Origin: Vaginella massiliensis | GTDB taxonomy: Bacteria > Bacteroidota > Bacteroidia > Flavobacteriales > Weeksellaceae | Assembly: GCF_900089075.1 (NCBI RefSeq) | Contig: NZ_LT593746.1 | Span: 618,920-682,919 of the forward strand | Direction: 5' to 3' | DNA length: 64,000 nucleotides | In this document: positions 35,647-51,793 of the stretch, one piece after another | Position numbering within the stretch: the first letter of the stretch is position 1 | Layout of the letters: each line of letters opens with the position of its first letter | Translations under genes and position numbers: made by a program | The notes under the pieces: generated by a model | The model's database searches: none | Told to the model about the DNA's origin: nothing | Seen by the model: only the letters and a program-made list of their open reading frames with translations

Positions 35647-35720
35647 TCCTCCTTAGCTCAGTTGGTTAGAGCATCTGACTGTTAATCAGAGGGTCGCTGG
35701 TTCGAGCCCAGCAGGAGGAG
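35647..35720 (+). tRNA. tRNA-Asn (GTT), copy 1
   Basis: Acceptor TCCTCCT / AGGAGGA, D arm AGCTCAGTTGGTTAGAGC, anticodon stem TCTGA / TCAGA with loop CTGTTAA (anticodon GTT), T arm GCTGGTTCGAGCCCAGC. CCA is not encoded. Confidence 0.97.
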
Positions 35721-35763
35721 CAAAGTCAAGAAAAGACTTCAAAAAATCACAAAAAAAGGTCAT

Positions 35764-35837
35764 TCCTCCTTAGCTCAGTTGGTTAGAGCATCTGACTGTT
35801 AATCAGAGGGTCGCTGGTTCGAGCCCAGCAGGAGGAG
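35764..35837 (+). tRNA. tRNA-Asn (GTT), copy 2
   Basis: Identical over all 74 bases to copy 1, 43 bases downstream and presumably on the same transcript. Confidence 0.97.
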
Positions 35838-35844
35838 CGATAAG

Positions 35845-35980: not shown

Positions 35981-36145
35981 ATGAAGAATAAACCAAGACA
36001 GCTCATTGTCCACAATTTAGAAGAATGGCAAGAGTTGATAGAAGGCTATCATCCTACCCACGACAAATGTCGTGACCTGAAGATCTTTAAACATTTTTCG
36101 GCAACCAAAGACGACTTATCTCTCCAACATAAAAAAATCTATTGA
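35981..36145 (+). pseudogene. rearranged 5' fragment of the LOG-family gene
   Basis: A 54-codon ORF starting MKNKPRQLIVHNLEEWQELI. The first part matches the N-terminus of the full LOG gene at 38853 (TLIHNLDEW), then jumps in frame over 76 codons to the region WQELMEGYHPTHDKSRDLKI and stops matching after HFSATK. The 84 bases 36026-36109 match 39126-39209 with three mismatches. The jump point is a shared TGGC. It ends in an unrelated tail (DDLSLQHKKIY). Most likely a remnant; a short functional peptide cannot be excluded. Confidence 0.75.
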
Positions 36146-36274
36146 ACTCTAGATTATTTATATTTTATACAACCATAGTTGTAAATTTTGAATCTAAAAC
36201 AGATTCAATATCCTTGAATAGAAAAACTCCTAAAAAGCTTAAAGATAAAAGAAAGTTTAAAGTAGAATAAAAAA

Positions 36275-36300
36275 AATTCAGGAAAATATTTTCCTGAATT
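36275..36300 (-). terminator. terminator of the QVGINT three-gene operon
   Basis: Perfect 26-base palindrome (arms aattcaggaaaat / attttcctgaatt) followed on the minus strand by a T-rich run. The rest of 36146-36332 is A+T rich and shows nothing else. Confidence 0.75.
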
Positions 36301-36332
36301 AAATGTAAATTAAGCGTTATATTATTTATATA

Positions 36333-37001
36333 CTAAAACTTCTCACAAGTAATTGTATATGAGTTATAGGTATTTCCGTTATTTGTATAGTTTGGTCGTC
36401 CTAAAAATGTAACCCTATAATAATTGGCTTCTCCAGGATAAGAAATGTAGAATTCACCTGTACTATTCACATCGAGTTGAGGACATAATAATTGAGTTTG
36501 AGTATAATTACTAGAGTTGAAAGTTTTCCCATTTGCTTTATAATACTTTAAGTTAACGTCTCCCCATTTCCTAAATAAAGTATAATATGTAGTAACTTCC
36601 TTTTTGGGGTCATCAAGTAAATTCATCATAATATCTAAGTTTTTATTTGATGAAGTGGAAGGTCGGAACGAAAACTGGAAGCGACCACATGTCAGCTTCT
36701 CATTAGCATTTGGTTTTAAGTCTGTATAAAAAAGACGCTTATTTTCAATAATTTCTTCCTTAATTTGATACTTTAAATCTGTAATATTAATTGCATCGAT
36801 ATTACCATTGGTATCTGTAACTAAAACTTGACTATAAGAGTCTATTTCCGAAGATTTATCTTTTAGTACTCTTACTTTTAGGTCGCCATTTATATCGAGC
36901 ATACGTGTAGGTTGATCTGTTTGTATACCTACTTGAGCAAAAATGTTTATTGAAAACATCATGCTAATAAAGCATATGAATTTGTTTATATTTATTTTCA
37001 T
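36333..37001 (-). CDS. secreted QVGINT-type protein, paralog C
   Basis: A 222-residue exported protein: signal peptide ending NIFAQ, then the motif QVGIQTDQPTRMLDINGDLK that opens many flavobacterial surface/tail-fibre-like proteins. The middle carries CGRFQFSF and the end YRVTFLGRPN..CEKF. No type IX C-terminal sorting domain is obvious. Third gene of a tandem with 10-base gaps. Start chosen at MKININKF, the second ATG, which puts the signal peptide at the N-terminus. Function unknown. Confidence 0.8.
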   Translation of the reverse strand: MKININKFICFISMMFSINIFAQVGIQTDQPTRMLDINGDLKVRVLKDKSSEIDSYSQVLVTDTNGNIDAINITDLKYQIKEEIIENKRLFYTDLKPNANEKLTCGRFQFSFRPSTSSNKNLDIMMNLLDDPKKEVTTYYTLFRKWGDVNLKYYKANGKTFNSSNYTQTQLLCPQLDVNSTGEFYISYPGEANYYRVTFLGRPNYTNNGNTYNSYTITCEKF

Positions 37002-37011
37002 TGTAATCTTA

Positions 37012-37788
37012 TTATTGGTTATAATATCTTTCACAGATTAGAATGCGTAAACCGCTATTTTCAACGTTTTTAAGATTTAGTGCCTGACCTGGTCTAATAT
37101 CAGATTTTTTATTTGGCATTCTACTAAAATTAACTTTATATAGATCACCAGTTAATGGATCAATAATATGTAATTTTAAGAAGTCATTATTGATCATATA
37201 CTTCTCCGAGTAAGTAAACTGTGTGTTGGCATTATCTGAATATGGAAGCGAATAATCAAAAACTTTCTGAAACTGATTCCAGTTTGTAGTATTGAATGTT
37301 TTATCAAAGTTGCTATAATAGTAGTCACCATCACCAGTGTTTCCACTATGTCCTCCTATAAGTCTATTAGGATTTCTCCGTTCAAGTCTTCTCAGTCCGT
37401 ACTGAATATTATAATTAGAGCTAGGCTTTTGAGAAAGTTTAAATACAGGTTGATTGTCTGCAGTAAATGCAAATATAAATCTACCACAAACAACAGTTTT
37501 TTCTTGGTCACCTCCAGATTCATTATAATAAACATTTCTAACAACTTCTACTTGTTGAGTAGGTGATTGTGTGATAGAGGATTTTTTTTGCTTATCTACA
37601 TTTCCTGTTGAATTTGCGATTACGATGTCGCTATAGCCTTTATCGTCTTTCTTATCTTGAGTCTCTGTTACTCTTAAGTTGCCATTTAAATCAAGTATTC
37701 GCTCCGAAGAATTTGTATTGATGCCTATTTGAGCAAGTGTAGATAAACTAAGAACAAACGTTAAGATACTTGTTATATAAAATTTCAT
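37012..37788 (-). CDS. secreted QVGINT-type protein, paralog B
   Basis: A 258-residue exported protein: signal peptide ending STLAQ, motif QIGINTNSSERILDLNGNLR, then VCGRFIFAF and the C-terminal YKVNFSRMPN..ICERYYNQ. It has the same plan as the flanking paralogs but a longer middle (about residues 115-175, GGDQEK and GGHSGNTGDGDYYYS). The start at MKFYITS is preferred over an ATG 12 codons upstream that overlaps the previous gene. Function unknown. Confidence 0.8.
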   Translation of the reverse strand: MKFYITSILTFVLSLSTLAQIGINTNSSERILDLNGNLRVTETQDKKDDKGYSDIVIANSTGNVDKQKKSSITQSPTQQVEVVRNVYYNESGGDQEKTVVCGRFIFAFTADNQPVFKLSQKPSSNYNIQYGLRRLERRNPNRLIGGHSGNTGDGDYYYSNFDKTFNTTNWNQFQKVFDYSLPYSDNANTQFTYSEKYMINNDFLKLHIIDPLTGDLYKVNFSRMPNKKSDIRPGQALNLKNVENSGLRILICERYYNQ

Positions 37789-37798
37789 TATTGTTAAT

Positions 37799-38458
37799 TT
37801 AGAATTGTTCACATATATTGACAAAGTATGTTTCGTTATTTTGCTTTATGCGGTAAAACGTAATACGATAAAATTGTTCTTCCCGTGGGTAGGAGATATA
37901 CAACTCATTGTATTCCCCATCTACAACATGTGCACCTGAAGTGACTGGTATACTTTGGTAGGTACTGTAATTATTGGGGGTGAAGACTTTTGCATTAGGT
38001 GATGCTTCATATTCAAAACCATCATTCCTATTGTAAGGAGGAAAGTTTTGCTCAAAAGTAACATATACATTTACATTGTTTTGCGGCCGATCTAGTAAGC
38101 GAAAGCTTACTTTAGCGTCGTTATCTAGAAAGCTAAAAACAAACCTTCCACATGTTAGTGATCGTGTAGTTATAGGTCTTCCATTTGTCGTTTTATAAAG
38201 ATTATTTTGTACGATCTTATTAACCTCACCTGTCATATCTGGCAATAAATTACTTTTATTAATGTAATCAACATTACCATTATTATCGACAGCTAATACC
38301 TTAGAATAATCACTGTCTGCAGCTTTGTTTTGAAGGTTTCTAACTCTTAGATTACCTTCGACATGCAGATCTCTTGTAGGGTTTTCAGTATTAATTCCTA
38401 CTTGAGCCCAAGAAATCGAGAAAAGCATTAGGAATCCTAGATATAAAATTTTTTTCAT
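37799..38458 (-). CDS. secreted QVGINT-type protein, paralog A
   Basis: A 219-residue exported protein and first gene of the tandem: MKKILYLGFLMLFSISWAQ signal peptide, VGINTENPTRDLHVEGNLRV, then TCGRFVFSF and YRITFYRIKQ..CEQF. The CGRF box and the terminal Cys-acidic-aromatic end are shared by all three, indicating duplication. A plausible extracytoplasmic or surface beta domain; role unknown. Upstream (38459-38852) is a 394-base A+T-rich gap that carries four 10-base direct repeats and presumably both divergent promoters, which I could not pin down. Confidence 0.82.
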   Translation of the reverse strand: MKKILYLGFLMLFSISWAQVGINTENPTRDLHVEGNLRVRNLQNKAADSDYSKVLAVDNNGNVDYINKSNLLPDMTGEVNKIVQNNLYKTTNGRPITTRSLTCGRFVFSFLDNDAKVSFRLLDRPQNNVNVYVTFEQNFPPYNRNDGFEYEASPNAKVFTPNNYSTYQSIPVTSGAHVVDGEYNELYISYPREEQFYRITFYRIKQNNETYFVNICEQF

Positions 38459-38700
38459 TTCAATTTTTTTTTCATTTTAATTTATAAAGTATATTGCTTT
38501 CAATAAAATATTTATTGTCAAAAAATACTAAAGCTGAAGATAAAGTATATAAGAAAAGAAGAAGTAAGATAAAATACTTCCAATCGAAAAGGAATCACCT
38601 ATATGAGCCCTTTAGCTTTTCATAGAATTTTTTAAGAAAATTTGTGTTGGTTGTGCAAAATTATAAATAATTAATGAATATAAAAATCGTTGTATCGATC

Positions 38701-38740
38701 AAATTCATATTAATTCATATTAATTCATTATAATTCAGAG
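38701..38740 (+). repeat. four direct 10-base repeats
   Basis: Four consecutive units (aaattcatat, taattcatat, taattcatta, taattcagag) share AATTCA in identical phase, one per helical turn, 113 bases upstream of the LOG start and in the spacer between divergent transcripts. A possible cooperative protein-binding site; a chance A+T-rich repeat is also possible. Confidence 0.5.
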
Positions 38741-38852
38741 TGTTCTAGAAAATTATTTAATATAATTTTATGACCGACAGATAATTTTCGAGCACTTATA
38801 ATTTTTTTGAGGAAATTATTAATATATTTTGGTTAAAGTATTTAATCAAAAC

Positions 38853-40004
38853 ATGAAAAAGAAATGTCCTCAAACCCTAATACATAATTTAGATGAGTGG
38901 CGAGTTTTGGTACAAAACACCAACTCGCTCGCTCATACCGTGATCCAAGACGTTAATTTCTGTCAAGAAAAAGTCGATTGGACACGCTTTTACCTCAATC
39001 AAACTTCTTTTTTGGGGTGTACCTTCAATCGTCGAGATGCTATTTACCTCATCGAGAAAGGGGCTTTCGTTTATCCGAAATTCAAAAATATTCCCTACAA
39101 ACCCTACCGTAGCTTTCTCTATACCTGGCAAGAGTTGATGGAAGGCTATCATCCTACCCACGACAAAAGTCGTGACCTGAAGATCTATAAACATTTTTCG
39201 GCAACCAAATACAACCCCAGCGTTCACGAAGCAATGGCACAACGGATTCATGATCATAGTATTGATGATGCTCTGCGCGAATTGTTAGGGTACGATGACC
39301 AAGGAATGACACAAAGAAAATGTGTCGGTTTCATGGGCGGACATGCAACCAAACGCGGATCCGAGTTCTATAATAAAACAGCCTTGGCAGCAAAACGACT
39401 TGCTCAAATGGGCTATTATGTCGTAACAGGAGGCGGACCAGGGATTATGGAAGCCGCGAATTTGGGAGCGTATATGGCGCATTACTCCGAAGAAGATTTG
39501 TCAGACGCCATTGCTATTTTGCAAGACCTAAAGTTTTCAGAACCTGATCAGGTCGATTATTTGGCTGAGAACTATGCTCAACAATCGAAAAAAGTTCTCG
39601 AGCATTATCCCAATGCCTGTGAGAATTTAGCGATTCCTACCTGGTTCTATGGTCACGAGCCGAGTAATTTATTTGCCACCCATATCGCCAAATACTTTTC
39701 GAACAGTATCCGAGAAGATACCTTGTTGGCAATAAGTTTGTTCGGAATTGTATATGCGCCCGGTAGTGCAGGGACGACACAAGAGATTTTTCAAGAAGCA
39801 GCTCAAAATCATTACGGAACCTTTGGCTATTATAGTCCGATGGTATTCTTGGGTGTGAAGCGTTATGTAGAAGATACAACCTTGTATTCGGTCTTGCATC
39901 AGTTGGCAAAAGGAAAAACCTATAAAAAATTATTGTTTCTAACCGATGAAGCAGAGGAAGTTGCAGATTTTATTGCAGCAAATCCACCCATAAAAGCAGA
40001 ATAG
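38853..40004 (+). CDS. LOG family protein (lysine-decarboxylase-like fold)
   Basis: A 383-residue protein with the LOG/TIGR00730-type fold: CVGFMGGHATKRGSEFY, the nucleotide-binding VVTGGGPGIMEAANLGAYMA and the catalytic-type APGSAGTTQEIFQEA (variant of PGGxGTxxE). Such proteins hydrolyse nucleoside monophosphates to base and ribose phosphate (cytokinin-activating LOG, PpnN). The first 120 residues are an extra N-terminal domain. The start is the ATG at 38853 rather than an upstream TTG. A partial duplicate lies 2.7 kb upstream. Confidence 0.88.
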   Translation: MKKKCPQTLIHNLDEWRVLVQNTNSLAHTVIQDVNFCQEKVDWTRFYLNQTSFLGCTFNRRDAIYLIEKGAFVYPKFKNIPYKPYRSFLYTWQELMEGYHPTHDKSRDLKIYKHFSATKYNPSVHEAMAQRIHDHSIDDALRELLGYDDQGMTQRKCVGFMGGHATKRGSEFYNKTALAAKRLAQMGYYVVTGGGPGIMEAANLGAYMAHYSEEDLSDAIAILQDLKFSEPDQVDYLAENYAQQSKKVLEHYPNACENLAIPTWFYGHEPSNLFATHIAKYFSNSIREDTLLAISLFGIVYAPGSAGTTQEIFQEAAQNHYGTFGYYSPMVFLGVKRYVEDTTLYSVLHQLAKGKTYKKLLFLTDEAEEVADFIAANPPIKAE

Positions 40005-40047: not shown

Positions 40048-40120
<73 letters not shown>

Positions 40121-40127
40121 CTAAGAT

Positions 40128-40200
<73 letters not shown>

Positions 40201-40242
40201 CTAACAACACTAATAATCAAAAGATTGCGAGTGTTATGGACT

Positions 40243-40281: not shown

Positions 40282-40651
40282 TTAATTATTTAAATCATTT
40301 ATAAAACAATTTTCACTTTCCATCGCTATTCCATTAAACCCAAAAATTCCTTTTGATCCAAAAGTAATTTTAATTACATCTCCTCTTAAAGATCTAATTT
40401 CCATAATATCATTACAAGGTATTACAATATTTGAAAATCCTTATTTTAATATCAATTTCTTGTCTGTTTTTATAATATAATGAAATACTATACAAATAGA
40501 TAAAAACTATCAACATTATAGAATTTAAAACTATTGCTTCCATTAATCCATATTTATTGAATATACCTAAAAAAACAACAGGATGTATAATTATATACAT
40601 AAGAGTCAACAATTTAACATATATTGACTTTGTACTTTTTATTTTTTTCAT
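40282..40651 (-). pseudogene. frameshifted PH-domain-like membrane protein
   Basis: The first 79 codons encode two membrane helices (KLLTLMYIIIHPVVFLGIF and AIVLNSIMLIVFIYLYSISL). The frame then ends, but one base away an open frame continues with GFSNIVIPCNDIMEIRSLRG and ITFGSKGIFGFNGIA to a stop at 40282. The second part resembles bacterial PH domains that follow two N-terminal helices, where FGSGGLFGY is a known pattern. A single-base insertion near 40432-40442 would explain it. The C-terminus is also short. Family assignment is tentative. Confidence 0.55.
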
Positions 40652-40745
40652 AATATATCACTTGATCTTGTTCAAATTCTGTTTCATTTACCATAGCAAG
40701 AGTTCCCAAAAGAGCAAAAACACTTACAAATAAAATTTTCTTCAT
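40614..40745 (-). pseudogene. truncated second copy of the Cys-peptide gene
   Basis: A 43-codon ORF starting MKKILFVSVFALLGTLAMVN, closely similar to the leader of the peptide at 44589 (MMKILFASAFALIGTFAMAN). The Cys-containing core is missing; after the leader comes EFEQDQVIYYEKNKKYKV, and the end overlaps the PH-like gene start. The bases upstream of both ATGs are also alike (ttttttagttta..attgttgttaat), so the leader and its 5' region were duplicated. Confidence 0.6.
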
Positions 40746-40763
40746 TTTTTTAGTTTATTTATT

Positions 40764-40810
40764 GTTGTTAATATTACTATGATATGATAGTAATATTAAC
40801 AACCTTTTTT
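40764..40810 (+). repeat. 17-base perfect inverted repeat with T tract
   Basis: Arms gttgttaatattactat (40764-40780) and its exact complement (40787-40803) enclose gatatg, followed by cttttttaaaaa. It lies between the barrel gene's stop and the truncated peptide start. The T run is on the plus strand, so as a terminator it would block transcription entering the cassette from the tRNA side. Confidence 0.75.
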
Positions 40811-43436
40811 AAAAATTAAATCGAGTGGTGAACATGACTTGAGTTGGTCGTAATTTATAAACATAACGCTGTTCTAAATTCGAAGAAAAACTATTTTGTG
40901 AAAAATATTTTTCATTAAATAGATTATAAGCACTTAATTCAAAATCTATTTTCTTCTTTTTTAATGAATAACGATACATCAAATCTCCGAAAGTAGAATT
41001 AGGATTTAATCTCGTGTCATCGTTTACATATAAATCAAAATTAAGCTTTACGTAATGTTGATCTGCTGGAAAAAAATGTAATCCAACTTGATGAATTTGA
41101 TTGGTAATTGATCTTGAACTTGAGTTTCCTGACAATTTATTTTTATAATTTGTTAAACCGTATTTATATTCAAAAGTCATCCAACTTAATAATCTGAAAG
41201 AAGCATCAAAATTTGAAGTTAAAATAGTGTTGTCAATTTCGACTAAATCATCATTTAATAATTGATCGTATGTTGTAAAATTATATCCTCCAGCTAAATT
41301 AAATGTTGTCTTAATTTTAGAAAAATATTGACTTACTTTAGCATTAACCGAATGTGTTTTTTGATGATTTTTTAAGTTCAAAGCTTCTAAAAGTGTACTT
41401 GCATCTGCATTGTAGTTATAATTGTAGATTAGGTTATTTTCTGTCCAATTATACGAATATCCAAAATTGATAAACCTTGATTTTATCGGATTTTTATACT
41501 CGAAACGTAAAGAAGAATTCCATTTTTTTACTTCGTTAAAATCTCCATAATTTTGTTGAATAGAATTGTATCGAAACAATATAAATCCTTTGTGTAAACG
41601 TGTTAAACTTCCTAAATCATTAGAGAAATTATGCGAAGTTGATACTTTCCAGAATTTTGAAAATTCTAATCCTATGTTAAATTTAGGTTCGATATAAAAG
41701 CGATTGTAAGAAGTTTTATCTCCGAAAGAATTATTTTCTAAATTATACCACTGAAAAGGAATTCCAAAAGAAAAATTAAGTCGATTTTTTCTGTACGAAA
41801 AGTTATTTTCTACATACGGATTTAAAGTTGACCAACGTGTATTGTTGGTAAAAGTTGAATTTATTGATTGATTATCTGCTAACAAGTCACTTTTCATTGT
41901 ATGATTGGTGTATTTAATTCCAATTTTTGATTGTAGCGTTAAAGCCTTTATTCCTTTTGAAAATTCTGCAAAATTATTTGTCGAAAATTTCTCGAAATTA
42001 ATTTGTTGAAAAGCATTTTGATAATCATTTCCATTGTTTATAAAATCAGTAAAAACTCCAGGAGTAATACTTAAATTTTCGCTGTAACTTTTGTATGATA
42101 TATTAGATTTAAGCGTAATTAACTGTTTGCCAATTTTCTTTATTGTATTAAATTGATTGGTAAATTGACGATTTGGTTGAGCCAAACGTTGTGTAATCAA
42201 ATTATTATTTTGGTGGAGATTCCCTCTCGAACTATTCCAATCGCCTTTAAATTCTAAGACATTTTCAAGATAATTTTTCGAACTATTTTGAGATAATGTT
42301 GCTTTAAGATTAAGACTTTCCATTTGTAAATAATTTTGTTTGATTTCTTTGAGAAATATATCGCCAGTAGGTAAAAAGTATTGTGTGTTTGTTTCTCCAA
42401 ATCGCTTTTGAAAATCGTTGTGATAAGACAAATTAATTCGTAAATCTATCTCTTTTTTTAATTTGAAAAGATGATTCCAAGAACCAATATTTATTGCATT
42501 ATCCAACCAACGTTCGCCATCAAAATTGGGAGTTTGAATTCCTGAAATAGATAACCATCTTTCATTCGAAAATTTTTCAGAATCGTTTAACAAATCTTCT
42601 AAACTTAATGTTTTTAATTGTCGTGATACATCATTTCCACTATTATTTCCTTGATAAGAACCAATCATTTGTTGTTTATTTGTAAATAACATTGGTGTAA
42701 TATTAGCATGGTATAACATAGATGATATGCCAAGACCAACTTCTGCTTTACCAGAATAAGTCATTTTATTTTTCAGTTTTATGTTTAATGCCGCTTTGGG
42801 ACTATAAACTAAACTATCTAAAATCTTGATTGGTTGATGGTTCTCTAAAATTTGAACTTTATCTACAGCATCTGCAGAAAGATTTTCGTTTGCTAAAGCA
42901 TATTTCCCTCCCAACAAATCCATTCCTTCAATATAATATTTATTGATTGGTTCGCCTTGATATAATATTCGACCTGAAGCTTCTATTTCTATTCCAGGCA
43001 TTTTTTTGATCACATCTGCTATAGAACGATCTTGGATATCTTTAAAATTACTAACATCATAAGCAATTGTATCGCCTTTTTTTCGGATTGGAGATTCTTT
43101 TAGTTTTACTTCTTTCAACTCAATTGCTTTTTCTTGTAAAGTAAAATCGAAATTATTAGACGATTCGTTTACCAAAACTGAAATAAATGCATAATCCATC
43201 GCACGAACTTTTATTTCATAAGTTTCGTGCGATGGATTATCTAATTTCAAAGTGTATTTTCCATCATTTTTTGTAATGAAGTATGCTAAAGTTTCATCCG
43301 AAGTACTTGATGAAATAATTACATTAGCACCTGTTATAGGATTTCCTTCTTCATTTTTTACAACTCCAGATATAGTAAATTGTGCAAAAATAAAGTGTGA
43401 GAGTAGAGTGAATATTAGTGTTAATTGGAATTTCAA
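40809..43436 (-). CDS. TonB-receptor-like outer-membrane beta-barrel protein
   Basis: An 875-residue outer-membrane protein: signal peptide 1-18 (HFIFAQ), CarboxypepD_reg-like domain about 20-115 (ISGVVKNEEGNPITGANVII), plug-like domain about 125-220 (DVIKKMPGIEIEASGRI, EPINKYYIEGMDLLGGKY, VQILENHQPIKIL), then a long beta barrel ending in FTTRFNF with a C-terminal Phe. It starts one base after the stop of the GLPGLI gene. Barrels of this type regularly accompany GLPGLI proteins in Bacteroidota; the transported molecule is unknown. Codon use is A+T rich compared with core genes. Confidence 0.85.
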   Translation of the reverse strand: MKFQLTLIFTLLSHFIFAQFTISGVVKNEEGNPITGANVIISSSTSDETLAYFITKNDGKYTLKLDNPSHETYEIKVRAMDYAFISVLVNESSNNFDFTLQEKAIELKEVKLKESPIRKKGDTIAYDVSNFKDIQDRSIADVIKKMPGIEIEASGRILYQGEPINKYYIEGMDLLGGKYALANENLSADAVDKVQILENHQPIKILDSLVYSPKAALNIKLKNKMTYSGKAEVGLGISSMLYHANITPMLFTNKQQMIGSYQGNNSGNDVSRQLKTLSLEDLLNDSEKFSNERWLSISGIQTPNFDGERWLDNAINIGSWNHLFKLKKEIDLRINLSYHNDFQKRFGETNTQYFLPTGDIFLKEIKQNYLQMESLNLKATLSQNSSKNYLENVLEFKGDWNSSRGNLHQNNNLITQRLAQPNRQFTNQFNTIKKIGKQLITLKSNISYKSYSENLSITPGVFTDFINNGNDYQNAFQQINFEKFSTNNFAEFSKGIKALTLQSKIGIKYTNHTMKSDLLADNQSINSTFTNNTRWSTLNPYVENNFSYRKNRLNFSFGIPFQWYNLENNSFGDKTSYNRFYIEPKFNIGLEFSKFWKVSTSHNFSNDLGSLTRLHKGFILFRYNSIQQNYGDFNEVKKWNSSLRFEYKNPIKSRFINFGYSYNWTENNLIYNYNYNADASTLLEALNLKNHQKTHSVNAKVSQYFSKIKTTFNLAGGYNFTTYDQLLNDDLVEIDNTILTSNFDASFRLLSWMTFEYKYGLTNYKNKLSGNSSSRSITNQIHQVGLHFFPADQHYVKLNFDLYVNDDTRLNPNSTFGDLMYRYSLKKKKIDFELSAYNLFNEKYFSQNSFSSNLEQRYVYKLRPTQVMFTTRFNF

Positions 43437-43437
43437 A

Positions 43438-44277
43438 TTAATTATTCAATTCTATTGGATTATAAGGTAGTTCTTTAGTCATTGAAGTTTCTTCTACTCC
43501 TGGCTTACTATAAACCTGTCCTACATAAATCCCAGGATTACTATGAAAATTTTGTTCTGCCTTATAAAAGTCTTTTTTTGTAGTTTTTATTATATTCTTT
43601 TCTTTATGTATGTATATAGTACTTGAATTGTTATCTATTCCTTGAGCTGTAAAATGATGTTCATTATTATCATCATATACTTCTAATATTAAACCTGGTA
43701 ATCCATTAAATATAAAAGGGCCATCGTTTAAAGGAATGTCTTCTGAATAATATGCAATCCAATTACGTCCTTTATAATAAACTCTAGCTTCTTTACATTT
43801 ATACCCTAATATTTCTTTCATATTTTCCTTTAAGTCCCATTTTAAAACAGGAATTTCTTCTATAAATTCATAATTTTTATTATATATTTTCCCTTGAAAT
43901 AGGTATTTACCATCTTTAGTATTTACAATAGATTTATTAAACTTTATTGCTTTTCGGATAGCTATGAGCTCATTTAAATCATTTGAATCTATAAAATCTT
44001 TTTTAGAATTTTTAACAGTCATAGAGTCAAATTTTAAAAGATTTGCATCTGTAAATTTTGTTTTGCCTTTTCCTATTTGAAGTACTGTAATAGTATTCTT
44101 TTTCTTATCTCTATTCTTCTTGTCAGATGAAAATGAATAACTGTAATAAATGTTTTTAGAAACCGTATCTAGTTTCTCAATTACAATCTCATCTGGATTC
44201 AATTTAAAATTACCAGATATTTCTTGTGAATATCCAAATACTGATAATAATAGAAAAAATATTATTTTTTTAAACAT
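43438..44277 (-). CDS. GLPGLI family protein
   Basis: A 279-residue exported protein with signal peptide 1-17 (FFLLLSVFGYSQ) and the namesake motif GLPGLI at residues 192-197 within PFIFNGLPGLILEVYD. CKEARVYYKGRNWIAYYSED precedes it, also typical. The family is periplasmic and uncharacterised. The start at MFKKIIFF is favoured over an ATG nine codons upstream. It follows the peptide gene after a hairpin and directly precedes the barrel gene. Confidence 0.9.
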   Translation of the reverse strand: MFKKIIFFLLLSVFGYSQEISGNFKLNPDEIVIEKLDTVSKNIYYSYSFSSDKKNRDKKKNTITVLQIGKGKTKFTDANLLKFDSMTVKNSKKDFIDSNDLNELIAIRKAIKFNKSIVNTKDGKYLFQGKIYNKNYEFIEEIPVLKWDLKENMKEILGYKCKEARVYYKGRNWIAYYSEDIPLNDGPFIFNGLPGLILEVYDDNNEHHFTAQGIDNNSSTIYIHKEKNIIKTTKKDFYKAEQNFHSNPGIYVGQVYSKPGVEETSMTKELPYNPIELNN

Positions 44278-44302
44278 TTTAATAAATTTTATTTTAATTG
44301 AC

Positions 44303-44327
44303 AAAGACTACTTTTAAGTAGTCTTTT
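44303..44327 (-). terminator. hairpin between peptide and GLPGLI genes (possible attenuator)
   Basis: aaagactac / gtagtcttt, loop ttttaa. On the minus strand only three T follow, so it should terminate incompletely and lower expression of the two downstream genes relative to the peptide. Confidence 0.5.
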
Positions 44328-44346
44328 CATTATATTAGTCAGCTTA

Positions 44347-44589
44347 TTAGCACCCTCTTGCTTCGTCAAAATAATCAATAGCATCCAACACATCTCCTGT
44401 AGTCTCATAATTGTCTGCACATAAATAATATGTCCCACAAGAATTAACAGTAATCCAACTACTACAAGGTGCTACAACTTCAACTTTTTTATCTTCACCT
44501 TTCTCTTCAGTTGTTTTAGTTTTTGTGTCATTTGCCATAGCAAAAGTTCCAATAAGTGCAAAAGCACTTGCAAATAAAATTTTCATCAT
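44347..44589 (-). CDS. small secreted Cys-rich peptide
   Basis: An 80-residue precursor: signal peptide about 1-19 (ILFASAFALIGTFAMA, AxA cleavage before NDT), a Lys/Glu/Thr-rich linker 20-38, and a compact C-terminal core with Cys42, Cys51, Cys57 and Cys80 (CSSWITVNSCGTYYLC and the final RGC). I do not recognise the family. It is first in a transcript with GLPGLI and barrel genes. Possible identities are a secreted signal, a bacteriocin-like peptide or a small surface protein. Start at MMKILF rather than the ATG 12 codons upstream. Confidence 0.78.
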   Translation of the reverse strand: MMKILFASAFALIGTFAMANDTKTKTTEEKGEDKKVEVVAPCSSWITVNSCGTYYLCADNYETTGDVLDAIDYFDEARGC

Positions 44590-44671
44590 TTTTTTTAGTT
44601 TTAGTATTGTTGTTAATTTTACCAAACTAAATATTATTTTTTATATTACAAAATTTTAATTGTTTAATTTT

Positions 44672-45154
44672 TTACTTCACTTCCATTTTCTCTACCTTTC
44701 TAAACAAATCTTTACTTTCCTTTGGATTTTTCTCAATCTAAAGTTTAAACTTTTTTAAAAATTCAGCATCTTTTTGACCATTATATTGTCCTTTTTGAAT
44801 CAGTTCATTTCTGTAATCTTCTTTTATATCAGACTTAATCTCAATTCCATATTTAAACGTAAAAAAGAAAGCTACTAACCCTATTGCACAAAAAATAACT
44901 GAATACAATACTACATTAAACCTTTTGTGAGTATTTTCAATACCTTTTTTCCTCTTTTCAGCCACTCTTTCCAATTTTCCAATACTTTGATCCACTTCTG
45001 AACGATCTACTTTAATATCCGTTCGTTTAAGTTCGTTCAAATAACGCTGATTAGACTGCTCCATTTGAGAAGCTAATTCTTCCATACGTCTGATTTTCTC
45101 CGACATTTCTTTATTCTCAGCTAAAAGTATCTCTAAAAACTGTTTGTTATTCAT
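44672..45154 (-). pseudogene. mobilisation-associated coiled-coil membrane protein, nonsense mutation
   Basis: Coiled coil about 5-80 (EMSEKIRRMEELASQMEQ), one membrane helix about 82-102 (VVLYSVIFCAIGLVAFFF) and a Lys-rich tail. It matches the MobB/coiled-coil genes that follow relaxases in Bacteroidota mobilisable elements. The frame hits TAG (44738-44740) after FLKKFKL but continues open for 21 codons (IEKNPKESKDLFRKVEK) to TAA at 44672. The TAG probably replaces TGG (Trp). It lies 31 bases after the relaxase. Confidence 0.7.
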
Positions 45155-45185
45155 ATAGTTAGTTTAATTCATTAAAAATTTACAA

Positions 45186-45957
45186 CTACATTCCTCTGTC
45201 AATCGAACGTCCAACTTTAAGCGCAACATCCGCTATTTTAATCTCCGGTTGTAAAAGCGAAAGAACTTCCACCGGTTTTGTAACCATTTCTTTGGTTAAG
45301 CCTTTTACAATTTCCGTTTGCATGGTCATTCCTTTAAATGAAACACCTTTCTCAATCATACTTTTCATTCCACAATTTTTATGAATTTCAGAAGCTTTAA
45401 AATCAAGCCGACTAATTTTATCATGAATAAGGAACCCTTGCAATTTCCCCCCCCTTTATTAATTGTTGGTTCAATTCGACAACCTTTGTCATACATACTT
45501 TGCATATAGTCCGAAAAAGTACGCGATTGCTTAACTGAAATGTTATGTTTTTTATAAATATCAGCTTTTAGTTCTTTGCTTAATTCCTTATCCAACATTC
45601 GCTCAATCTCCTTATCTTGTCGAACTTCTTTCGCCGTTTTTAAACCATTCTCAAGTGCAATTTTTTCAGCAGAATTTTGAGCTTTAAATCCAATATAAGA
45701 ATCGTCCAAGGCTTTTCCTTTTTCATCTATTCGGTTAGCTATAATATGAATATGAGTTGCTTTTGTGTTTTGATGAACATAAGCAATACATTGATTGTTT
45801 TCTAAACCTAAATTTTTCAAATGATCTTGGGTATAACGCAATAATTCTTGGCGTGTATGTACCTGATCATTGTTTGGGCTTAAAACAATAGAAATCCTAT
45901 TGTTGGAACAATTCTCATTCATCTCCTGTACTTCTCTAAACTCTGCAAGTATTTCAA
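45186..45957 (-). pseudogene. relaxase/mobilisation nuclease, truncated and frameshifted
   Basis: MobB-type relaxase with the HUH-like metal motif THIHIIANRI (first His in AYVHQNTKATHIHI), preceded by EILAEFREVQEMNENCSNNR, which is typical but begins abruptly at the IS3 left end, so the N-terminus with the catalytic Tyr region is lost. A run of eight G (45447-45454) breaks the frame after EPTINKGG; one more or two fewer G restores LQGFLIHDKISRLDFKASE through to GRSIDRGM. Both lesions indicate an inactive gene. Confidence 0.8.
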
Positions 45958-46025
45958 TAAATCCCCCTAAAATTCCGACAGTTTAAAAGATTATAAAAAT
46001 TTATAAATTTAAACTGTTATTAGAG

Positions 46026-46292
46026 ATGAAAAAGTCAAGATTTACAGAAACACAAATCAGCCAAGTACTCAAGGAGAATGAAGCTGGCAAAAAGGGATCC
46101 GATACATGCCGAGAATTATCCATCAGTCCAAACACCTTTTATTTGTGGAAGCGCAAATATGGTGGCATGGATCAAGAAATGTTGCGTCAATACAAGGAAT
46201 TGGAGTGAGAAAATGCTCGCTTGAAAAAGACGTAAGCGGATTTGAGTTTGGATCACAGAATTCTAAAAGAGGTCATCGAAAAAAAGCTTTAG
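46026..46292 (+). pseudogene. IS3 orfA (helix-turn-helix), two nonsense codons
   Basis: MKKSRFTETQISQVLKENEA and the HTH stretch CRELSISPNTFYLWKRKYGG are intact, then TGA at 46206 and TAA at 46233 interrupt a frame that otherwise continues ENARLKK, ADLSLDHRILKEVIEKKL to the usual orfA stop. The A7G slippery tract at 46279-46286 used for -1 frameshifting into orfB remains. Confidence 0.85.
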
Positions 46293-47109
46293 GGCTCTGT
46301 CAGAAAAGAGATTTGGCAGAAGAATTAACAGATGACAAACAATTCAGTACGGCCAGAGCCTGTCGCATCATCGGATTGGAACGTTCGGGATATTATTATC
46401 AAAGCATCAAGGACGATACAGAAGTAGAGCGTAGATTGCTTTATTATGCCGAAAAACTTCTGTCAAGAGGTTGTCCGGAATACACCAAACGCATCAGAAA
46501 GGAAGGTTATGGGTGGAACCATAAACGCATTGAGAGGATTTACCGTAAGTTAGGACTGAACAAACGCAGAAGGAAAGTCAAATGTCGCATCCCCAATCCG
46601 GGCAAAGAATACTTATTGCAGCCGATTGCACCCAATATTACTTGGAGTATGGAATTTATGAGTGATGTGTTGGAGAACGGAAGAAAGATTCGGATACTGA
46701 ACGTGATAGACGATTACAACCGGGAGGCATTAATGTGCGAAATAGACTATAGTTTTGCTTCAGAGAAAGTAGTTAAACTCGTGCAAAGGCTCATTGAGTG
46801 GTATGGAAAACCAACCAACATCCGTACGGACAACGGCACGGAGTTCATCGCAAAAGCTTTTGAGGGCTTTTGCTCCAACTCCTCTATCTGGCATATCAAG
46901 ATACAGAAAGGAACCCCATGCAGAACGGATTTTGTGAACGCTTCAATAAATATTTTAGAGAAGATGTGCTAGATGCTTACCTATTTGAAAACTTAGAACA
47001 GGCAAGAACCATCGCCCAAAACTGGATGGATGATTACAACAATCATCACCCACATTCAAGTTTAGCTGATTGTTCACCTATCGAATTTAAATTAAAAAGA
47101 AGTGCGTAA
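46283..47109 (+). pseudogene. IS3 orfB (DDE transposase), frameshifted
   Basis: Integrase-type core: FSTARACRIIGLERSGYYYQ, then NITWSMEFMSDVLENGRKIR, RTDNGTEFIA and, after a frame change near 46915, QNGFCERFNKYFREDVLDAY and HHPHSSLADCSPIEF. A one-base loss around accccatg separates the two parts. The first acidic residue of the DDE triad reads Glu (WSME) instead of the usual Asp. Confidence 0.85.
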
Positions 47110-47144
47110 TTTGTTTAGTTTTGAATTGTCTGAAAAACGGGGGA

Positions 47145-47257
47145 CTTACAATTTTGGCAGTGGGAAGAGGGAGAGTTCCACCAATCAGAACGGCGGCTAT
47201 ATTCATGACATTGAATTGCAAAGCTATGGTGAATATTTGGTAAGAGCTATCGATTAA
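47145..47257 (+). pseudogene. orphan C-terminal gene fragment at the IS right end
   Basis: An open frame without start codon: YNFGSGKRESSTNQNGGYIH, then DIELQSYGEYLVRAID and stop. It reads like the end of a real protein cut off by the IS, but I do not recognise it. The remaining sequence 47258-47511 (254 bases) is A+T rich and shows no gene. Confidence 0.35.
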
Positions 47258-47511
47258 AAACATGAGCAAAGTTTCTGGCGTTTCACAAAACATAGATTGA
47301 TAAAGCCCAATGATTTAGAAATCAATATTATATCACATTTAAGGATGCGATTTCTACTTGAAAAAGGATAACCCAGAATAAAAAAAAACAATAAAAACTA
47401 AAAAAATATGGATAACTTTCTTAACGACTAAGTCTAAAAGTTACCCACATTCTTATGTTTTACAAAAAAAATATTTTAAAAAAAACGCTGATTTTGAAGT
47501 TTTAAATCTAT

Positions 47512-48210
47512 TTATCGATACTTCGTTACACTTAAACAAACATTAGAATATGATGAGGATGTTCTTTTTTGCCCATAATATGATATTCTAAAAAAATCCA
47601 TATCCGTTAATTGTGTTCCGGTTACGTTTTGGTCTGTAAAAAATAGAAATTCACCTGCATACTCCACATCCCAATTTAAGTTCCCCGTCATATGTACCCA
47701 TGTATTGGGAGGTAACGGTACATAACCCTTAGAAGAACCATTTCCTCCCATACTTGAAGTATAGCCCTGCACCGTGGTAGTTTTATTGTTTCTGATTTGA
47801 AGATAATTTCCTGAACTTCCAGCTGTGTTCACATGATAGCTGAAAGAGAAATCCTCAAAATCAATTTGAGCTACTCCTTGATTGTTAACTTCAGAAAAAT
47901 TTTGTGAAGTGGAAGCATAACATGCATTTTGCGAAACATTTGAAGACTCCTTAGGCACATAGTTTACAGTTCCAAACACTCCATTTTGATCAGCAACAAC
48001 TGTGCGTGTTGCAACAAAATTATTTGTCCCCGCCGTACCATCAGCCAAAGTATTAATAGAATTAGTAGAACCATTATTGGGAAGGCTCTGCACTCTTACC
48101 GTACCACTGACATCAAATTTTTCAGTAGGAGTTTCGGTATTTACACCTACTTGTGCATTTGCAAGAAAAGCTCCTGCAAAGACCATTAACAAAGATAAGT
48201 TTTTCTTCAT
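47512..48210 (-). CDS. secreted QVGVNT-type protein, paralog D
   Basis: A 232-residue exported protein: signal peptide MKKNLSLLMVFAGAFLANAQ, then VGVNTETPTEKFDVSGTVRV, a linker with repeated Thr/Asn, and a beta domain containing DFEDFSFSYHVN and FFRISYYGQKR..NVCLSVTKYR. It shares the start motif and the end layout with the three paralogs at 36.3-38.5 kb but lacks their CGRF box. It stands alone between two dead transposases. Function unknown. Confidence 0.8.
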   Translation of the reverse strand: MKKNLSLLMVFAGAFLANAQVGVNTETPTEKFDVSGTVRVQSLPNNGSTNSINTLADGTAGTNNFVATRTVVADQNGVFGTVNYVPKESSNVSQNACYASTSQNFSEVNNQGVAQIDFEDFSFSYHVNTAGSSGNYLQIRNNKTTTVQGYTSSMGGNGSSKGYVPLPPNTWVHMTGNLNWDVEYAGEFLFFTDQNVTGTQLTDMDFFRISYYGQKRTSSSYSNVCLSVTKYR

Positions 48211-48361
48211 AATTAAATTTTTTTTACATAAGATTTCATTAAAACATGTTTAAGATTTACAAAAAGAAATTCTTTATCAGGTAAGAAAATTACAAAAATT
48301 AGGCTAAAAATCCAAATAACCTCAGTTCGATTAATACAACAAAACCAACTGATTAGCATTC

Positions 48362-48572
48362 TATGTCATCAGAAAATCCAGAAAGAGAATTGAGACCTTA
48401 TTCTTCCAACTCTAAGACCAATTTTAGGATTCGAAGCAATTACGCAAAAACTTTCAATAGATTTAAAACGACAGTTTTGAGTAAAATAACCGCGCTGACC
48501 ATTATCCAATTTGTAAATGTTTTTGTATTCGGTAGAAAAATGAACAACATTAAAGTTTCAATTATTAAATAA
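48362..48572 (+). pseudogene. IS982-family transposase remnant
   Basis: Reading two frames gives YVIRKSRKRIETLFFQL, a TAA stop (48413), DQF, then after a one-base shift RIRSNYAKTFNRFKTTVLSK and ITALTIIQFVNVFVFGRKMN to the stop. This is the C-terminal end of Bacteroidota IS982-type transposases. The 5' part is gone. The rest of 48211-48657 shows nothing else except the promoter below. Confidence 0.65.
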
Positions 48573-48641
48573 TGCACTACGGGCGACACTATATTTTGAG
48601 AACCGAAATAAGAATCTCTTTTTTATACATCATCCTTTTTG

Positions 48642-51229: not shown

Positions 51230-51793
51230 TTAGGCTTCTAACCAGTTTTTGAGCAGCTCGTCTCCAAAGGGTGTCAAGATAGATTCTGGATGAAATTGCA
51301 CGCCTCTTACATCGTAGGTTTTGTGTCGTAAAGCCATGATTTCACCCTCTGGACCAACAGCCGTGATTTCTAATTCCTCAGGGAAATCATCGCGCGAAAC
51401 CACCCAAGAATGGTAACGACCAACTTCAAACCGTTGCGGTAAATGAGCAAATAATCGATCTGGCACGATGACCGCTATCTCAGATTTTATACCGTGAAAC
51501 ACCCTTTCGGTGTTGTGCAGTTTTCCGCCAAAAACCTCAGCGATGGCTTGTTGTCCGAGGCATACGCCCAAAATCGATTTGCTTGCGGCGTATGCTTGAA
51601 TTATGGGTTTGAGCATATTTGCTTCATCTGGAATTCCTGGACCAGGTGACAACAATATTTTATCGTAAAGTTTTACCTCTTCCAATGCGATTTCGTCGTT
51701 CCGTTTTACCGTAATATTTTGTGCAAACTTCTTCAGGCTATGCACCAGATTGTAGGTGAAAGAATCGTAATTGTCGAGTACCAATATTTTCAT
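51230..51793 (-). CDS. anthranilate/aminodeoxychorismate synthase glutaminase subunit
   Basis: Class I glutamine amidotransferase of 187 residues that supplies ammonia to the chorismate-using partner. Catalytic Cys78 in GVCLGQQA, His168 and Glu170 in QFHPES; the oxyanion motif SPGPGIPDEA is present. It may serve tryptophan (TrpG) or folate (PabA) synthesis or both; no partner gene is adjacent. The following gap 51794-52014 (221 bases) is A+T rich without a recognised gene. Confidence 0.9.
   Translation of the reverse strand: MKILVLDNYDSFTYNLVHSLKKFAQNITVKRNDEIALEEVKLYDKILLSPGPGIPDEANMLKPIIQAYAASKSILGVCLGQQAIAEVFGGKLHNTERVFHGIKSEIAVIVPDRLFAHLPQRFEVGRYHSWVVSRDDFPEELEITAVGPEGEIMALRHKTYDVRGVQFHPESILTPFGDELLKNWLEA

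Follow-up and report, generated by a model that had tools for sequence, protein, structure and literature searches.

A LOG-family gene in the genome of Vaginella massiliensis has part of its sequence repeated on the far side of three genes for secreted proteins, and the question raised by this arrangement is how the gene array and the two LOG copies came to stand together. The locus lies in a stretch of 64,000 nucleotides, referred to here as the window, and was compared using one genome per species: the window's genome (G000, 2.43 Mb) and those of two genus-mates, G001 (2,272,954 bases) and G002. The features concerned are as follows.

35647..35838, + strand: tRNA-Asn pair (ARAGORN), on the presumed recipient side of the junction.
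35981..36025, + strand: diverged LOG 5' end, probably the recipient's own; 15 codons, or 16 with the TGG at 36026-36028; LOG-family N-terminus MKNKPRQLIVHNLEEW.
36026..36115, + strand: LOG piece of the probably imported type, codons 92-121, fused in frame at TGGC and apparently decaying; 81/84 over its first 84 bases.
36116..36258, no strand assigned: filler of 143 bases between the LOG piece and the array; no meaningful match.
36333..37001, - strand: array gene 3, signal peptide and QVGIQT secreted protein, probably imported; 71% amino-acid identity to G001 991878-992543, dS 0.93.
37012..37788, - strand: array gene 2, QIGINT secreted protein, probably imported; 66% amino-acid identity to the G001 orthologue, dS 0.95.
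37799..38458, - strand: array gene 1, QVGINT secreted protein, probably imported; 64% amino-acid identity to the G001 orthologue, dS 0.97.
38853..40004, + strand: full LOG/SLOG-family gene, 383 aa, probably an imported allele; 97.0% nucleotide identity to G002, Pfam LDcluster4 above cut-off.
39126..39215, + strand: the part of the full LOG gene that is duplicated at 36026-36115 (pairwise match).
40048..40201, + strand: tRNA-Met pair 3' of LOG (ARAGORN); homology to both genus-mates stops about 100 bases further on.

The first-pass annotation had described an 84-base repeat with a left copy joined in frame after the removal of 228 bases at a shared TGGC, and alignment confirmed this description. 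Positions 36026-36109 equal 39126-39209 at 81 of 84 bases, or 85 of 90 when the match is extended to 36115; a genome-wide search gave the 84-base pair an E value of 1.4e-34 and returned no third copy of the block in the genome. In the full LOG gene, which starts with the ATG at 38853, TGGC occurs at 38898 and again at 39126, that is, at codons 16 and 92, 228 bases apart. In the left fragment, the ATG at 35981 lies only 45 bases 5' of the 84-base block, which opens with TGGC at 36026, so that after its first 45 bases the fragment is offset by 228 bases relative to the full gene, and the in-frame join gives a 54-aa open reading frame at 35981-36145. The full-length protein matches the Pfam family SLOG cluster 4 (PF18306, LDcluster4) with 29.1 bits against a cut-off of 26.3, and falls outside the TIGR00730 subfamily, for which it scores only 23 bits against a cut-off of 96.

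The two parts of the left fragment differ in their affinities. The claim that the left copy carries the LOG start region holds in the sense that this start is of the LOG family by similarity, but it is not a copy of the adjacent start, to which its first 45 bases are identical at only 27 positions, whereas the LOG starts of the three genus members agree with one another at 45-48 of 48. The 16 N-terminal residues of the fragment reach a BLOSUM62 score of 50 against LOG-family N-termini, compared with 25 or less for approximately 4,400 other M-initial 16-mers of the same sequence set, genuine LOG starts aside. It shares the residues K-P at positions 4-5 with Empedobacter and Algoriella; with the TGG included, the start matches genus LOG sequences at 30 of 48 bases and those of Empedobacter at 29-32 of 48, a length too short for tree placement. 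By its sequence, the start represents a LOG lineage distinct from the others seen in the genus. As 45 bases cannot be placed on a tree, we infer its native status, namely that it is probably the remnant of the original LOG gene of the recipient. No second copy of the long LOG gene was found elsewhere in the recipient genome.

The 84-base block, by comparison, matches the LOG genes of G000 and G002, which are identical here, at 81 of 84 bases, that of G001 at 68, and those of other genera at 51-58, a pattern that assigns it to the putatively imported LOG type. Over 90 bases, the differing codons are all amino-acid changing (M>I, S>C, Y>F, Y>D and N>D), and at the five differing bases the fragment is unlike all eight family members compared. 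Since every difference changes an amino acid and is unique to the fragment, the piece looks like an unconstrained pseudogene. The first-pass annotation had named conservation of the fragment as a distinct gene as counting against its reading, a situation that did not arise, as the LOG fragment is absent from G001 and G002. For the filler at 36116-36258, no source appeared in DNA searches of G000, G001, G002 and G023, nor in protein searches.

The age of the array and the full LOG gene can be compared with that of their surroundings through synonymous sites. Between G000 and G002, fourfold-site identity is 88% for LOG (97.0% over all nucleotides) versus 20.5-47% for 17 other window genes. The corresponding LOG values are 53% both for G000-G001 and for G001-G002, and because these two are equal, the LOG gene of the window stands at a within-clade distance. 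Relative to G001, the array genes have dS values of 0.93-0.97 and LOG 0.88, with LOG at 0.91 between G001 and G002, whereas the neighbouring genes give a G000-G001 background pS of 0.70-0.79, which is saturated or nearly so. On these synonymous measures, the array and LOG share an age much younger than the species split and the neighbouring genes. Because their distance to G001 is common while the neighbours are saturated, they probably arrived together, from the G001/G002 clade or from a nearby unsampled member of the genus. In a rooted LOG tree with outgroups, no closest pair emerged among the three genus members (AU p 0.47, support 50/10); the distances conflict with the species relationships, and the direction of transfer is consequently read from them. 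Slow evolution of LOG is ruled out as the cause of the identity with G002, since LOG at 53% between G001 and G002 is no less diverged than other genes (55-83%). Transfer from G000 to G002 is disfavoured as well; it predicts a G000-G001 LOG identity at background, approximately 20-40%, versus the observed 53%.

The limits of the younger segment can be followed on both sides. On the right, the high identity to G002 covers both LOG and tRNA-Met and is lost some 60-100 bases past the latter, at the point where homology to G001 ends as well. On the left, the tRNA-Asn bodies are identical in all three genomes, with a spacer and flanks that differ in G000 and are nearly identical between G001 and G002, as is expected of a pair that has had no recent sharing with the genus-mates. 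Because this pattern is the opposite of that of LOG, the boundary between recipient and putatively imported DNA is placed between tRNA-Asn and the array, and the fragment would straddle it.

Gene order in relatives indicates what each side of this boundary may have looked like. G001 carries the array, LOG, two tRNA-Met genes, other genes, two tRNA-Asn genes and trpB, in that order. In G002, three other QVGI-type genes stand upstream of LOG-tRNA-Met and a type I restriction system downstream, with tRNA-Asn beside trpB on a contig separate from that of LOG. The location of tRNA-Asn therefore differs between the window and G001. The RNase G gene to the left of the window's tRNA-Asn pair has no adjoining tRNA-Asn in either genus-mate; in G001 it lies a long way from LOG, and in G002 the two genes are on separate contigs. 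Empedobacter, Algoriella, Moheibacter and Apibacter have LOG adjoining tRNA-Met without the array, and there tRNA-Asn is not beside LOG. Because the pairing recurs in several other genera of the family, LOG-tRNA-Met is, judging by gene order, an old unit; the array stands beside it only in this genus, among the genera examined. The empty site proposed as a check, with tRNA-Asn, LOG and tRNA-Met contiguous and no array, was not found in the relatives examined.

The surroundings offer further observations. On the 3' side of the tRNA-Met pair, each of the three genus members has a different content; in the window (40300-48600), this side contains a CarboxypepD_reg-domain gene, a Porph_ging-domain gene, a relaxase fragment (45365-45922), a transposase gene with an rve domain (46106-46972) and a further QVGVNT gene (47512-48210). 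A trpG-like gene, which lies near trpB by tRNA-Asn in G001 and G002, is isolated in the window at 51230-51793. No TrpB orthologue was found in the window's genome, where the best match has 30% identity; this points to loss of the trp operon, at least in part.

The explanation we consider the best, and reasonably likely, is the import of a block whose donor was a sister species within the genus, with the left fragment as the junction between recipient and donor LOG. The block would have comprised the three QVGINT-type secreted-protein genes, LOG and probably the tRNA-Met pair, and would have recombined into the recipient's own LOG-tRNA-Met locus. The array and LOG are much less diverged from sister species than the flanking genes are, and outside the junction the sequence is of recipient type (the spacer and flanks of tRNA-Asn and the 5' end of the fragment), both as expected of xenologous import. 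The right crossover probably fell within the conserved tRNA-Met pair or just past it. At the left end, the recipient LOG would have been cut at codon 16 and joined at the shared TGG(C) to a donor-type LOG piece, leaving the 54-codon pseudogene at 35981-36145. Because a 45-base start foreign to the genus LOG is followed by a block of imported type, the fragment is most simply read as such a junction, 228 bases out of register. Of the first-pass proposal that insertion or recombination brought the array here, recombination is supported by the shared young synonymous age of the array and LOG, but insertion of the array beside a resident full LOG is not, as the full LOG appears itself to be the foreign copy. 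A Campbell-type single-crossover insertion was also rejected; after such an event the 3' end of the right LOG would be native, and this gene is donor-type over its whole length to tRNA-Met.

Natural transformation is the presumed route. In homology-facilitated illegitimate recombination (HFIR), junctions form at 3-10 shared bases (PMC6382021). The present case resembles HFIR, or homeologous import by natural transformation, as described there (PMC6382021), in having a foreign block that is homologous at one end, a few-base junction at the other (here TGG or TGGC) and a mosaic gene at that junction. The TGG(C) at the join is a candidate microhomology. ComEC and DprA homologues, which are used in transformation, are present in the window's genome, although these are widespread (10-11 of 14 control genomes) and weakly favour this route. 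The case differs from HFIR in that part of the donor-type gene occurs in two copies, which calls for at least one additional step or for a donor molecule of an unusual kind. That no single simple event accounts for the 84-base LOG piece left of the array counts against the explanation; the extra bases may have arrived in donor DNA whose array was flanked by LOG on either side, or they may remain from a second import or from partial conversion, with 228 bases later deleted between the TGGC repeats.

An appreciably less probable account is that the resident LOG stayed beside the added array and LOG as a tandem pseudogene, was partly converted, lost 228 bases by slippage between TGGC sequences and lost its 3' end. 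The TGGC at codons 16 and 92 of the imported LOG makes an in-frame slippage of this size natural, and the 84-base block has decayed since, as a pseudogene might; the account nevertheless invokes a conversion and two deletions, where a direct junction takes fewer steps. The insertion with duplication of the first-pass annotation, in which part of LOG was copied locally and nothing was imported, is improbable: it accommodates a block of the same LOG type as the neighbouring full gene and leaves unexplained both the diverged 45-base start and the young synonymous age of the array and LOG beside old neighbours. Finally, a mobile element (integrase-borne or a transposon) bounded by the 84-base copies, as might be suggested by the relaxase fragment and transposase gene at 45-47 kb and by the direct repeats flanking the array, is very hard to credit, given that 35-41 kb holds no recombinase and no repeated tRNA ends, that the repeats lie inside LOG codons, and that G001 and G002 are without the LOG fragment.

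Block import by recombination remains the preferred reading, and the region at 35-41 kb contains no integrase, recombinase, terminal repeats or att repeats of the kind that define an integrative element or composite transposon. Recombination between the 84-base copies is predicted to delete the array and to yield an in-frame LOG of 307 residues without 76 codons; because it would not restore LOG, the repeats are better seen as a scar than as the ends of an excisable element. The duplication looks like the scar of ordinary bacterial gene exchange, unusually clearly documented. Genomic-island hotspots are variable loci beside tRNA genes, and the present locus is similar in that both sides of the LOG-tRNA-Met unit vary among the three genus members. 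It differs in that the block has neither an integrase nor an att duplication, and in that variable genes are also present 5' of LOG, remote from the tRNA 3' end.

The array proteins change considerably faster than LOG, with dN/dS ratios of 0.21-0.29 versus 0.04-0.08, and this rapid amino-acid change is in keeping with variable selection on secreted or surface proteins. The G001 array (L034:7661-8944) contains two recent duplicates (dS 0.30, dN 0.20, ratio 0.67), of which the second is shorter (176 aa) and probably truncated, and local duplication seems to let the array grow and diversify. The three QVGI-type genes of G002 (L033:401-2836) lie on the other strand directly upstream of an almost identical LOG and are not close relatives of the window array; the sequence changes over no more than about 70 bases from the LOG start. 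Plasmid searches gave no relatives of the array; the DNA hits cover 5-6% of the query and look like tRNA genes.

The case is a clear instance of a known process, in which the array and LOG can be dated, on their synonymous distances, to what was probably a joint arrival from a sister species, and in which the secreted-protein array found 5' of the LOG-tRNA-Met unit varies among genus members. A more tentative possibility, to which we give only limited credence, is that the 5' side of LOG serves as an exchange site at which whole fast-evolving QVGINT arrays are swapped between species, with LOG-tRNA-Met as the homologous anchor and LOG pieces as the scars of successive swaps. Because the array proteins change fast, in a manner that fits variable selection, the locus would be a reasonable place to seek differences in how these bacteria meet hosts or competitors.
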